Below are positions 2 through 28,000 of a DNA stretch of 28,652 nt, one piece after another; the stretch's first letter is position 1, and each line of letters opens with the position of its first letter. The notes beneath the pieces are model-generated. The model saw only the letters and a list, made by a program, of their open reading frames with translations. It made no database searches and was not told where the DNA came from. Made by a program: the position numbers and the translations under genes. Source of the stretch: a virus. Location of the stretch: positions 1 through 28,652 of IMG/VR virus record IMGVR_UViG_3300020207_002485. One strand, written 5' to 3'.

Positions 2-208
2 GTACAAGAAGTTATGGTTCAACTTGCTTATGCAATTGGATATGACCAACCACTTCAAGCAACTGCTATCGTCGATGGAGAACACGAATTTATCAAAGGA
101 TATGATTTATCACCAAAAGGAATTATTGATTTCTTAGATTTAAGAAAACCGGTATTTGGTGAAAGTGCTTCATTTGGACATATGGGTGCTGGGTTCTCAT
201 GGAAATAA
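2..208 (+). CDS. metK: S-adenosylmethionine synthetase, C-terminal fragment (gene begins upstream of window)
   Basis: The enzyme makes S-adenosylmethionine from methionine and ATP in the cytoplasm. The reading frame is open from base 2, so the 5' part of the gene lies outside the window. The visible 68 residues match the last part of bacterial MetK: the VQLAYAIGYDQP strand (family: VSYAIGVAEP), a GIIDFLDLRKPVF segment (family: GLIxMLDLRRPIY), and the terminal ESASFGHMGAGFSWK (family: ETAAYGHFGRxxxPWE). These are conserved C-terminal features; the catalytic loops are not in view. The stop overlaps the start of the next gene by 10 bases, so the two are probably translationally coupled. A phage copy may raise SAM supply for methyltransferases or other SAM users; that role is inference. 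Confidence 0.88.
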   Translation, partial: VQEVMVQLAYAIGYDQPLQATAIVDGEHEFIKGYDLSPKGIIDFLDLRKPVFGESASFGHMGAGFSWK

Positions 209-792: not shown

Positions 793-815
793 TTAATAAA
801 AAATTCGTATATTTG
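785..815 (+). promoter_or_regulatory. Bacteroidetes-type promoter upstream of the nucleotidyltransferase
   Basis: A TTG at 785-787 (preceded by C) stands 20 bases before TATATTTG at 808-815, matching the Bacteroidetes -33 (TTTG) and -7 (TAnnTTTG) consensus. The extended 14-mer TTCGTATATTTGTA (804-817) recurs at 2693 and 27969. The start codon at 820 lies only 4 bases after the -7 element, so the transcript may be leaderless or nearly so. Confidence 0.7.
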
Positions 816-819
816 TATT

Positions 820-1296
820 ATGAAAAAATATAAAGTTATTTTAATTAGTGGTGGATTTGACCCTGTTCATAAAGGCCACATAGAATGTATCCAAAATGCA
901 AAAGAACTTTCAGATGAAGTTTGGATTGGACTCAACAATGATAGATGGTTGAGAAATAAAAAAGGAAAATCATTTATGGATGAAAAAGAAAGAGCATTCG
1001 TAATGGATAATATAAAGGGAGTAGATTGGGTTTATATTATGAATCCCAAAATTCAAAACGATGAAACCGCTGTAGATTTCATTGATGCTGCCAGACACAA
1101 ATACATGAGAGAACGAGGTACATGGGAAACTGGTATCATGGCTTTCGGTAATGGTGGTGATAGAGTTGCAGGTGGAGTTCCTGCAACAGAAGAAGATGTT
1201 TGTAAAGGATATGGAATCGATATGGTTTGGGGATTAGGAAATAAAGTTCAATCATCTTCTTGGTTACTTGAAAAATACCACAATACCGCAGTTTAA
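820..1296 (+). CDS. Cytidylyltransferase-family nucleotidyltransferase
   Basis: This 158-residue protein has the nucleotidyltransferase HxGH fold of TagD, RfaE C-domain and NadD-like enzymes. Residues 7-20 give the ILISGGFDPVHKGH signature with H17 and H20 as the ATP/CTP-binding histidines. WIGLNNDRWLRNKKG follows, as the second strand and substrate loop, then MDEKERAFVM. VQSSSWLLEKY near the C-terminus stands in for the ISSTxxR motif. Such enzymes activate a phosphorylated sugar, alcohol or cofactor precursor with CTP or ATP; the substrate is unknown. The nearest family pattern is ADP-heptose or glycerol-3-phosphate type. It has its own host-type promoter just upstream. It may feed a glycan or lipid head-group pathway together with the nearby transferases, which is inference. 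Confidence 0.85.
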   Translation: MKKYKVILISGGFDPVHKGHIECIQNAKELSDEVWIGLNNDRWLRNKKGKSFMDEKERAFVMDNIKGVDWVYIMNPKIQNDETAVDFIDAARHKYMRERGTWETGIMAFGNGGDRVAGGVPATEEDVCKGYGIDMVWGLGNKVQSSSWLLEKYHNTAV

Positions 1297-4343: not shown

Positions 4344-6047
4344 ATGGGTTATATTTTAGGAATATCATGTGGTTATCACGATAGTGCAGCCGCACTAATT
4401 AAAGATGGTAAAGTTTTGGGTGCAGTTGAAGAGGAAAGATTTACTGGCATAAAACACGATTCTTCATTTCCAATAGAAACTATTAAATGGTTGTACTCTG
4501 AATTTAAAGTACAAAAGGATGATATTGATGCAATTTGTTTTTACGAAAATCCTTCTTTAAAATTAGATAGAATAGAAAACTCTACAAAACGAGGTGGGTT
4601 ATTAAATTATTTTAAAAGAAATAAAATAATATCTCGTAATAAAAAAGAATACGAAAAATTATCTACTACACTAAACTCAATTATAGGAGAAAATACTAAA
4701 GTAATTTATGGTGACCATCACCTTTCTCATGTTGCATATTCATACTACACTTCTCCATTTAATAAAGCAACAATTCTTTCAGTAGATGGTGTTGGAGAGT
4801 GGGAAACAACTTCAATGTATTATGGTGAAAAAAATACACTTACAAAGTTAGGAAGTGTAAACTTTCCACATTCATTAGGAATGTTATATTCAGCCTTTAC
4901 TGCTTTCTTAGGTTTCAAACCAAATGAAGGTGAGTATAAGATAATGGGATTAGCTCCTTATGGTGATTCTACAAAATACAAAAAAGAATTTGAAGAATTA
5001 ATTTCTAAAACAAATGATTCATATGAAATCAATATGGATTATTTTGTTTATGATTATTCAGATGAAATAATGTTTAATGAAAAACTTGGTAAGTTATTTG
5101 GAATTCCTAATAGATTACCAGAAGATGAATTAACACAAGAACATAAAGATATTGCAGCAGGATTACAATCTGCATATGAGAAAATATTTTTTCATTTGTT
5201 AAATAAATTATATGTAAAAAAATCAACTCACAATCTTTGTTTAAGTGGTGGGTGTGCGTACAATGGAACTGCAAATGGAAAAATTATAAAAGAAACAAAC
5301 TACAAAAAAGTTTACATTCCACCTGCACCATCTGATGCCGGTTCTGCTATTGGAGCAGCATTACATTATTATTATAATGAAAATTCCAATTCAAATAGAG
5401 TAACCAATAACAATCCTTATCTTGGTCCTTACTATTCCAATGAAGATGTAGAGAAGGCGTTGGAAGAACTAAAGGTAGATGTGTGGTATGAAAAGAAAAA
5501 TCATTCTGAAATTATAGAAATTGTAGCAAAAGAAATCACAGAAGGAAATGTAATAGGTTGGTTCGAAGGAAGAATGGAATTTGGTGCAAGAGCATTAGGA
5601 AACCGAAGTATTTTTGCAAATCCATGTGACCCTCAAATGAAGGCAAGAGTAAATAGAGTAATTAAGAAGAGAGAAGGGTTTAGACCTTTTGCACCTATTG
5701 TTAAATTAGAAGAACAATCTAAGTACTTTGATTATCCACATGATGTTCCTTATATGAATCAGGTGGTTCAAGTAAAAGAAGAACATAGAAAGAATTTACC
5801 AGCCATTACTCATGTTGATGGTTCTGCAAGAATACAATCACTAACTCAAAGACAACAACCACAAGTTTATAAACTATTAAGAAAACTTCATGAGTTAAAT
5901 GGATATCCAATTGTATTAAATACTTCATTTAACCTTAAAGACCAAACAATGGTATTAGACCCTAAGACTGCTATCCAAACATTTTTGAATTGTGAAATGG
6001 ATACTCTTGTGATTCATAACTATATTATCAAGAAAAAAGTACTTTAA
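4344..6047 (+). CDS. Carbamoyltransferase, NodU/CmcH/TobZ family
   Basis: A full-length 567-residue enzyme that would transfer the carbamoyl group of carbamoyl phosphate, via carbamoyl-adenylate, to a hydroxyl of a sugar or nucleoside. The N-terminal Kae1-like domain opens with ILGISCGYHDSAAALI and continues with AVEEERFTGIKHD (27-39). It carries the metal-binding GDHHLSHVA (123-131, H125 and H129), SVDGVGEWETTS, and GEYKIMGLAPYG (196-207). Then come LSGGCAYNGTANGK and PSDAGSAIGAAL (329-340). The C-terminal domain has GWFEGRMEFGARALGNRSI (405-423), REGFRPFAPIV and LNTSFNLKDQTMV. All key blocks are present and there is no truncation. It follows the sigma gene by 9 bases. The acceptor is unknown; antibiotics, Nod factors and nucleotides are known acceptors in the family. 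Confidence 0.93.
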   Translation: MGYILGISCGYHDSAAALIKDGKVLGAVEEERFTGIKHDSSFPIETIKWLYSEFKVQKDDIDAICFYENPSLKLDRIENSTKRGGLLNYFKRNKIISRNKKEYEKLSTTLNSIIGENTKVIYGDHHLSHVAYSYYTSPFNKATILSVDGVGEWETTSMYYGEKNTLTKLGSVNFPHSLGMLYSAFTAFLGFKPNEGEYKIMGLAPYGDSTKYKKEFEELISKTNDSYEINMDYFVYDYSDEIMFNEKLGKLFGIPNRLPEDELTQEHKDIAAGLQSAYEKIFFHLLNKLYVKKSTHNLCLSGGCAYNGTANGKIIKETNYKKVYIPPAPSDAGSAIGAALHYYYNENSNSNRVTNNNPYLGPYYSNEDVEKALEELKVDVWYEKKNHSEIIEIVAKEITEGNVIGWFEGRMEFGARALGNRSIFANPCDPQMKARVNRVIKKREGFRPFAPIVKLEEQSKYFDYPHDVPYMNQVVQVKEEHRKNLPAITHVDGSARIQSLTQRQQPQVYKLLRKLHELNGYPIVLNTSFNLKDQTMVLDPKTAIQTFLNCEMDTLVIHNYIIKKKVL

Positions 6048-26223: not shown

Positions 26224-26796
26224 TTGAGTTTACTTAAAAATTGTGCTCAGAAATGGGCATTTATTCATATTCCTAAAACAGGTGGAACTTCCATAAGTTC
26301 TGTCCTTCACGAAATAGACGGGACAGAAAAAGTTACAATGCACGATTCTGTTCGTGCTTTAGATGAGGTTAAGGATTACTTTATTTTTACATTTGTAAGA
26401 AATCCTTTCACACGATTACAATCAGCTTACCAACATGGTGTGAGAAAAAATGAATACACAACATCCTTTTCAGAATTTTTAAAATCAGATTTATCATCTA
26501 ATATTTGGATGATGCCTCAATATTATTTTGTTACTGCTGGTTCTTCTGAAAATAAAAAAGTTTCATTTATAGGAAAATATGAAAATTTAAAAGAAGATAC
26601 TTTAAAAATATTTAAAAAACTCAATATAGATAAACAGTTACCTCATCTAAATAACAATCCTATTTACGAAAGACATCCAGGTTTAAAACAAGAAGATTAT
26701 TATAAATCTTTTTATACCGAAGAGTGGATGAAGGATTGGGTAAGAGAAAGGTATGAAAATGATTTCAAAATTTTTAACTATGACATGGACATATAA
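26224..26796 (+). CDS. Sulfotransferase, family 2-like (PAPS-dependent)
   Basis: A 190-residue enzyme of the carbohydrate sulfotransferase type. The 5'-phosphosulfate loop is WAFIHIPKTGGTSISSVL (11-28). The 3'-phosphate site is FVRNPFTRLQSAYQHG (57-72), with R59 and S67 as the usual contacts. FIGKYENLKEDTLKIFKKLN and YYKSFYTEEWMKDWVRERY...DFKIFNYD form the typical C-terminal half, including the final Y-D-F-x-x-F-x-Y pattern. It likely sulfates a glycan. The start is a TTG: no in-frame ATG exists upstream of the PAPS loop within the gap after the previous stop, and no clear ribosome site is seen. The end overlaps the next gene. Confidence 0.85.
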   Translation: MSLLKNCAQKWAFIHIPKTGGTSISSVLHEIDGTEKVTMHDSVRALDEVKDYFIFTFVRNPFTRLQSAYQHGVRKNEYTTSFSEFLKSDLSSNIWMMPQYYFVTAGSSENKKVSFIGKYENLKEDTLKIFKKLNIDKQLPHLNNNPIYERHPGLKQEDYYKSFYTEEWMKDWVRERYENDFKIFNYDMDI

Positions 26797-27948: not shown

Positions 27949-27980
27949 TTTGGCTATATCAAAAATATTTCGTATATTTG
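27949..27980 (+). promoter_or_regulatory. Bacteroidetes-type promoter before the primase
   Basis: TTTG (27949-27952), a 20-base spacer and TATATTTG (27973-27980) match both consensus elements in full. The 14-mer TTCGTATATTTGTA (27969-27982) is shared with the promoters at 785 and 2673. The primase ATG is at 28001, 20 bases downstream. Confidence 0.82.
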
Positions 27981-28000
27981 TATCAGTTTAAAAGCAAAGT

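Follow-up and report, generated by a model that had tools for sequence, protein, structure and literature searches.

A compact metK lineage common to phages and Patescibacteria, and a possible phage-encoded SAM cycle

The window, a stretch of 28,652 bases that makes up the whole of one virus record, begins inside metK, the gene for S-adenosylmethionine (SAM) synthetase, apparently in the last fifth of the gene of a tailed phage. Sequence comparison assigns this gene to a compact MetK lineage common to phages and Patescibacteria, bacteria with tiny genomes; the enzyme is to all appearances a familiar one, but its form and genomic context are uncommon. The explanation preferred here, held with moderate confidence, is that the phage MetK would supply SAM in infection, chiefly for the phage's own methyltransferases, and that the sulfotransferase-like gene behind it is cargo. 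In the proposed mechanism, a compact methionine adenosyltransferase of about 320 residues would convert methionine and ATP to SAM, keeping it available when host synthesis fails or lags. DNA methyltransferases would be among the recipients in the relative G003. There the SAM cycle would be closed by an SAH/MTA-type nucleosidase, clearing the inhibitory product, together with an adenine phosphoribosyltransferase that converts the released adenine to AMP. The sulfotransferase-like gene would be an insert, probably carried on the same message, and not needed in the SAM chemistry. The compact phage metK is probably functional and most likely feeds the phage's own methylation; the timing, the use of SAM and the substrate of the nucleosidase are what we infer beyond this.

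The metK frame runs in from the 5' edge of the record, where it has no start, to a TAA stop codon at 206-208. The window being the entire record, no upstream part of the gene lies within it, and the C-terminal domain is the sole MetK domain visible, matched by the 68-residue fragment at 36.7 bits (Pfam S-AdoMet_synt_C, cut-off 25; Table 1). Other window content includes baseplate genes and, at the far end, a cut DNA primase gene. Scanning viral contigs with the 68 residues identified 62 loci that encode a relative, the best 96% identical, with 34 of them (L002-L034 and L039) at 85-96% identity. The fragment falls outside the D101 and F230 positions and outside both trees discussed below, its placement in the compact clade being made through identity to these 34 loci. 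The preliminary description was right in reporting a phage metK, as the 62 viral relatives and dN/dS values of 0.06-0.23 between the fragment and 12 relatives exclude a chance match. The overlap with the next gene is also exactly the 10 bases described there, with the ATG of that gene at 199.

Table 1. Features at the metK end of the window.
Feature	Position	Strand	Remark
metK 3' end, last 68 residues and stop codon	2..208	+	compact methionine adenosyltransferase; remainder beyond the record edge
Overlap of metK end and next gene start	199..208	+	10 bases; ATG within the last metK codons
Sulfotransferase-like gene, 197 aa	199..792	+	putative variable cargo, flanked by metK and a promoter-like element
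TTCGTATATTTGTAT promoter-like element, TAnnTTTG type	804..818	+	between the metK block and the next gene
Cytidylyltransferase-like gene	820..1296	+	commonest downstream metK neighbour; own promoter-like element

The start of metK lies inside the locus in 49 of the 62 relatives, and all 49 genes are open, free of stops and 316-327 aa long; in the other 13 loci metK is cut at the 5' end, and these were excluded from the length and tree work. The MetK of L003 matches the N-terminal, central and C-terminal S-AdoMet_synt families (PF00438, PF02772 and PF02773), all above cut-off. Seventeen positions of E. coli MetK, regarded here as its catalytic and substrate-binding active-site residues, were checked, and 15 are identical in every one of the 49 full-length phage rows; D101 is replaced by E and F230 by W in all 49. 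With open frames and catalytic residues retained in the full-length relatives, the earlier concern that the gene might be a pseudogene fragment or lack such residues does not apply. Among 10 full-length genes (45 pairs), dN/dS ranged from 0.051 to 0.245, with a median of 0.174.

The active-site lid is five residues shorter than that of E. coli MetK in 49/49 sequences, a trait also present in compact Patescibacteria, Fusobacterium, and Streptococcus and Faecalibacterium phage MetKs. Because the Fusobacterium and Streptococcus-phage enzymes share it, the short lid alone does not mark the compact clade; nor does it exclude membership of the MetK family. Together with D101E and F230W, the shorter lid could alter activity. 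Against the NCBI equivalog TIGR01034, L003 scored 230.2 bits, under the cut-off of 309.4, and in our judgement this shortfall speaks for a divergent form of MetK over another enzyme. An AlphaFold model of a compact phage MetK reached a pLDDT of 79.5, with poor confidence for residues 196-222; its best Foldseek match was human MAT2A (E 2.9e-26, rmsd near 6), and the solved structures matched include 8bb1, a complex of T3 SAM lyase and MetK. Catalysis by the compact phage enzyme is presumed.

Compared with canonical MetK (E. coli MetK and human MAT2A), the compact form belongs to the same three-domain family, keeps the catalytic His, Asp and Lys and the GAGDQG and GGGAFSGKD motifs, and has a matching predicted fold. 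It differs in length (about 320 against 384 aa), in the spacing between GVD and GAGDQG (two residues against seven), and in the D101E and F230W replacements, and is 36-40% identical to full-length canonical rows. The compact MetKs of Saccharibacteria and other Patescibacteria share the length class, the short lid and the signature residues of the phage enzyme. A search of bacterial and archaeal genomes gave 273 pattern hits, 261 of them relatives, and the best 80 of these 261 comprised 78 Saccharibacteria, one Patescibacteria and one unnamed bacterium at 55-62% identity; canonical MetKs, that of Prevotella included, are mostly 34-40% identical to the compact phage MetK. In a sample of the Patescibacteria phylum, 74 of 192 genomes gave a match, and the best 29 complete genes examined there form a graded length series from about 375 down to 312 residues, which favours an origin of compact MetK in Patescibacteria. 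The cellular neighbourhood was examined at one locus, L072, where the neighbours look cellular.

Two trees were built. For tree 1 (87 proteins), the 49 full-length phage rows were reduced to 35 at 97% identity, and 14 of the best 80 cellular loci were used for the trees. Tree 1 omits the repeats L165-L167, the partial L191, L154 because of its nearness to E. coli, L157 because of a split frame, and L160, which is truncated under translation table 11. The compact clade holds 62 rows, 35 from phages and 27 from Patescibacteria, with support of 100/100; the 35 phage rows lie on one side of a branch supported at 100/99, forming a clade of their own, and the E. coli, Prevotella and Streptococcus-phage MetKs fall outside the compact clade. 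Tree 2 added 29 viral rows from 44 further viral loci, 13 of which were left out (mostly near-copies) and two of which had no called MetK gene; the phage rows were thinned from 35 to 14, the Patescibacteria from 42 to 31 and the others from 10 to 5, and one row, VRL248, is only 25% filled. Here the compact clade has 63 rows in several lineages, 43 viral and 20 from Patescibacteria (100/100), and all 14 rows of the first scan stand inside a 23-row viral clade (99/98). E at D101 and W at F230 are residues of a clade separate from canonical MetK. The branching order within the compact clade is poorly resolved. The phylogeny against host metK that the preliminary description proposed had a surprising outcome: the phage gene groups with Patescibacteria and not with Prevotella, the sole Bacteroidota row in the trees; that row is far away, and on it a Bacteroidota-type metK grouping was rejected.

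The same description had called MetK rare in phages, which the counts contradict. The full-length L003 MetK matches 159 of 50,697 phage records, every one below 60% identity, and a profile scan of viral contigs gave at least 600 pattern hits and at least 591 confirmed relatives. Streptococcus phages account for 99 of the 159 records, and some of the 159 resemble bacterial sequence. At L157 (Helicobacter phage Pt11417A_1), metK is annotated as three pieces, its neighbours being an integrase, plsX and parts of a nucleoside diphosphate kinase gene, and therefore looks like host sequence at a prophage edge. The family phrog_1569, annotated as of unknown function, is matched over nearly its whole length by a compact phage MetK at 270 bits and by one from a Streptococcus phage at 570 bits, and these scores identify it as a SAM synthetase family, an annotation gap.

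Temperate Streptococcus phages (Javan558 and phi1207.3; phrog_1569) likewise carry a MetK. That of Javan558 has 345 aa, canonical D101 and F230, about 40% identity and a position outside the compact clade, though its lid is short too. For the SAM synthetase of phi1207.3, a role in providing the methyl donor to the cytosine methylase of that phage has been proposed (PMC4260502). A marine review (PMC6359870) lists metK as an auxiliary gene of viruses, as does work on Lake Baikal (PMC9611531), a karst lake (PMC8226683) and groundwater (PMC10980836), and a jumbo-phage survey reported dcm in the phage, and metK and mtnN in the host genome (PMC13037316). The passages of the aquatic and groundwater virome papers describe a virus-borne SAM synthetase without giving its sequence type or neighbourhood, and contain no tie of metK to Patescibacteria. 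A compact MetK common to phages and Patescibacteria was not found in the literature, represented mostly by titles and the openings of abstracts, and a search for MetK with nucleosidase and apt in phages returned none. Lists of auxiliary genes thus already include phage metK, the purpose of which has been little understood so far, and what sets the present case apart is the compact lineage, which links phages to Patescibacteria and offers enzymology a short natural MetK, and the possible SAM cycle.

The possible cycle comes from the relative G003 (L286-L299), apparently a complete phage of about 274 kb. The record has 275,970 bases, and its two ends share an overlap of about 2 kb with 97-99% identity. 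Its G+C is even and 310 of its 315 ORFs lie on one strand; 26 of the 31 window ORFs are matched, and 25 of these matches keep the window order, at 38-65 kb. PF01555 (N6_N4_Mtase) is matched with 116.5 bits by a DNA methyltransferase at 259,011-260,372, and a split copy lies at 251-253 kb. An adenine phosphoribosyltransferase gene (apt) is found at 256,660-257,157, and a nucleosidase of SAH/MTA type (PNP_UDP_1) at 257,610-258,158; the latter scores below the NCBI cut-offs, and its exact substrate is therefore putative. A scan for close relatives with this nucleosidase returned only itself. Two proteins with an SPPY motif at 189-196 kb give weak DNA-methyltransferase matches. All four genes (metK, methyltransferase, SAH-type nucleosidase and apt) thus occur in one phage genome, and the closeness of the DNA methyltransferases to the nucleosidase and apt makes a phage-encoded SAM cycle plausible. 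Across 106 viral loci, apt, mtnN and metK occur together in 10; overlapping genes are seen among such loci (L047, L054, L056, L057 and L251), three of which (L054, L056 and L057) have identical MetKs. The window's own phage would be expected to have the same distant genes. The gene set would spell out a loop of making, using and recycling SAM that a handful of cloned enzymes could test. As side observations, the two methyltransferase copies of G003 (251431-252781 and 259011-260372) are nearly identical over the first 90 residues and both carry a DPPY motif, one being split into two frames, and G003 has a chaperonin gene (PF00118, 247 bits).

A more far-reaching version is offered only tentatively. 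Compact MetK may be a mobile, streamlined enzyme, reduced stepwise in Patescibacteria and shared with many phage lineages, jumbo phages too. In these phages it would open a full SAM cycle encoded by the virus (metK, DNA methyltransferase, mtnN, apt), and the shortened lid and altered binding residues would release it from normal product inhibition. If that were true, a phage could push methylation flux on its own.

The preliminary description had suggested DNA methylation as the process demanding SAM and a look for neighbouring methyltransferases. This sink is supported indirectly, through the methyltransferases and likely SAH-recycling genes in a distant region of G003, although the 28.6-kb window holds none of the three methyltransferase families searched there (PF02086, PF08241 and PF05050). 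Among related records, PF01555 was found in 8 of 30 and PF00145 in none of 30; among 26, PF02086 was present in two, PF08241 and PF05050 in two each (one of each above cut-off), and AdoMet decarboxylase in none. The idea that close relatives lack DNA methyltransferases was dropped, such genes lying about 52-125 kb from metK around the G003 circle (151-221 kb along the record). Five of the 30 records extend as far as 52 kb upstream of metK or 151 kb downstream, and PF01555 occurs in all five, against three of the 25 that do not reach that far. Three of these five, together with the other three records with PF01555, belong to one phage group that includes near-copies and has another gene order, so the G003 distances fit those three of the five only loosely. 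By length, PF01555 is present in three of five records above 120 kb and in five of 25 shorter ones. The two long records that showed none of PF01555, PF00145 and PF02086 are G006 and G018. The absence in G006 (123 kb) says little because it covers only the match to about 39-162 kb of G003; G018 (128 kb), by contrast, includes the regions on either side of the apt-mtnN-methyltransferase island, but none of the island proteins is matched in it. A G018 gene with a DPPY motif had no PHROG or NCBIfam match. Elsewhere, Streptococcus phage Javan558 and an Evtepia phage have annotated DNA methyltransferase genes about 1.1 kb after metK, and in Faecalibacterium phage FP_Brigit the surroundings of metK contain no annotated methyltransferase.

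Possible, but rather unlikely in our estimate, is that metK is a housekeeping supplement that replaces host MetK lost with the degradation of host DNA and mRNA and, with no dedicated phage methyltransferase, feeds host-encoded RNA and protein methylation. The 22 of 30 related records lacking PF01555, with PF00145 and PF02086 rarer still, agree with this, as do thyA within 2 kb upstream of metK in 22 of the 40 loci able to show it, peptide deformylase downstream of metK in the window, and genes near metK in some loci that inspection by eye and the match to G003 label as chaperonin-like. But 25 of the 30 records extend too short a distance from metK to include methyltransferases at the G003 positions, the five that extend far enough all have PF01555, and the loci in which apt and mtnN lie close to metK indicate genuine turnover of SAM. 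A role against a host response, in which MetK compensates for SAM depletion, as raised beforehand, restores SAM after a defence that uses it, or feeds a SAM-needing system, is quite improbable; a precedent for phage and host contending over SAM is the T3 SAM lyase, seen bound to MetK in the 8bb1 structure matched above. A reading of the 68 residues as a remnant or assembly edge, with no functional gene behind them, is barely credible: the record does hold just the C-terminal part of metK, but close relatives have the full gene in the same place with the same downstream genes, and the fragment is under purifying selection. Supply of SAM for the phage's own methyltransferases is the preferred reading.

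The preliminary description had further coupled metK to the sulfotransferase-like gene. The pair is adjacent in four of 62 loci, window included, always with the 10-base overlap, and another gene follows metK in the other 58; of 53 viral loci of the sulfotransferase family, 44 have no metK, apt or mtnN in their flanks (up to 6 kb a side), and the nine that do are all from the same broad phage group. On these counts the sulfotransferase-like gene was rejected as a general metK partner. Very improbable, too, is that the two genes form one functional unit, for instance in modifying virion or cell-surface glycans. The constancy of the overlap in the four loci would suit such a unit, as would sulfotransferase-like relatives that overlap the end of mtnN in L052, lie 2.6 kb from apt in G003 (the G003 match, at 253.6 kb, is 29% identical to the window ORF), or stand about 5 kb from apt and mtnN in L403-L405. 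One of the four, L018, has upstream a glycosyltransferase (family 25) and a member of a cluster whose L031 copy matches Methyltransf_11. Against a unit stand the 58 loci with a different gene after metK, the 44 family loci free of SAM genes and the single broad group of the other nine, and the same slot being filled by other inserts in relatives. Inserts or nearby cargo around metK include FkbM, Methyltransf_11 and SET methyltransferases and a 2OG-Fe oxygenase. Where present, the sulfotransferase-like gene sits between the metK stop and the cytidylyltransferase-like gene.

The name sulfotransferase-like itself is reasonable but weakly backed. The protein scores 17.9 bits against Pfam Sulfotransfer_1, below the cut-off of 22, with no Pfam family at threshold and no PHROG or NCBIfam match. 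The best solved match of its model (pLDDT 74.9) is the Stf0 sulfotransferase (E 3.9e-3, prob 1.00, TM 0.52), and a profile search of solved structures with the family gave no sulfotransferase among the matches. Scans for close relatives found two loci with the window gene and three with the L052 copy. A second sulfotransferase of the window, at 26224-26796, matches Sulfotransfer_2 with 68.4 bits, clearly above cut-off.

The TTCGTATATTTGTAT element recurs in the window at 2693-2707 (one mismatch) and 27969-27983, with 0.27 copies expected in shuffles; all three lie a short distance upstream of an ORF start and are perhaps phage promoters of TAnnTTTG type. The element follows the sulfotransferase insert in the window and L015, the exact motif being lost in L018 and L020. 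The cytidylyltransferase-like gene is the next gene of at least 60 aa after metK in 30 of 62 loci, window included, and a TAnnTTTG site precedes it in 28 of 40 loci (at least one of them, L048, only through a site at the metK end) against one of 49 before metK. The host is perhaps a Bacteroidota bacterium: TAnnTTTG, which we take to be the Bacteroidota promoter type, occurs in the 60 bases preceding 97 of 873 phage genes, while eight permuted versions of the motif gave 11-57 (the loci including near-copies), an enrichment that suggests such a host. Counting against it are the Shine-Dalgarno-like sites that 11 of 25 window genes have in front of them (4 of 25 in shuffles) and the absence of the longer promoter-like element from 50 kb of Flavobacterium phage immuto. 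Over the 62 loci, though, Shine-Dalgarno-like sites precede only 138 of 852 genes (70 shuffled), compared with 213 of 458 (95 shuffled) in Saccharibacteria loci. The window baseplate protein is 38% identical to that of immuto and 43% identical to that of a Microcystis phage.

Two further genes of the window merit mention. A peptide deformylase gene lies at 1543-2160 (80.9 bits), and its cluster, c2, is found a few genes after metK in many related loci. A NodU-like carbamoyltransferase is encoded at 4344-6047, with both domains over 200 bits; enzymes of this kind can decorate antibiotics or hydroxymethylated bases.
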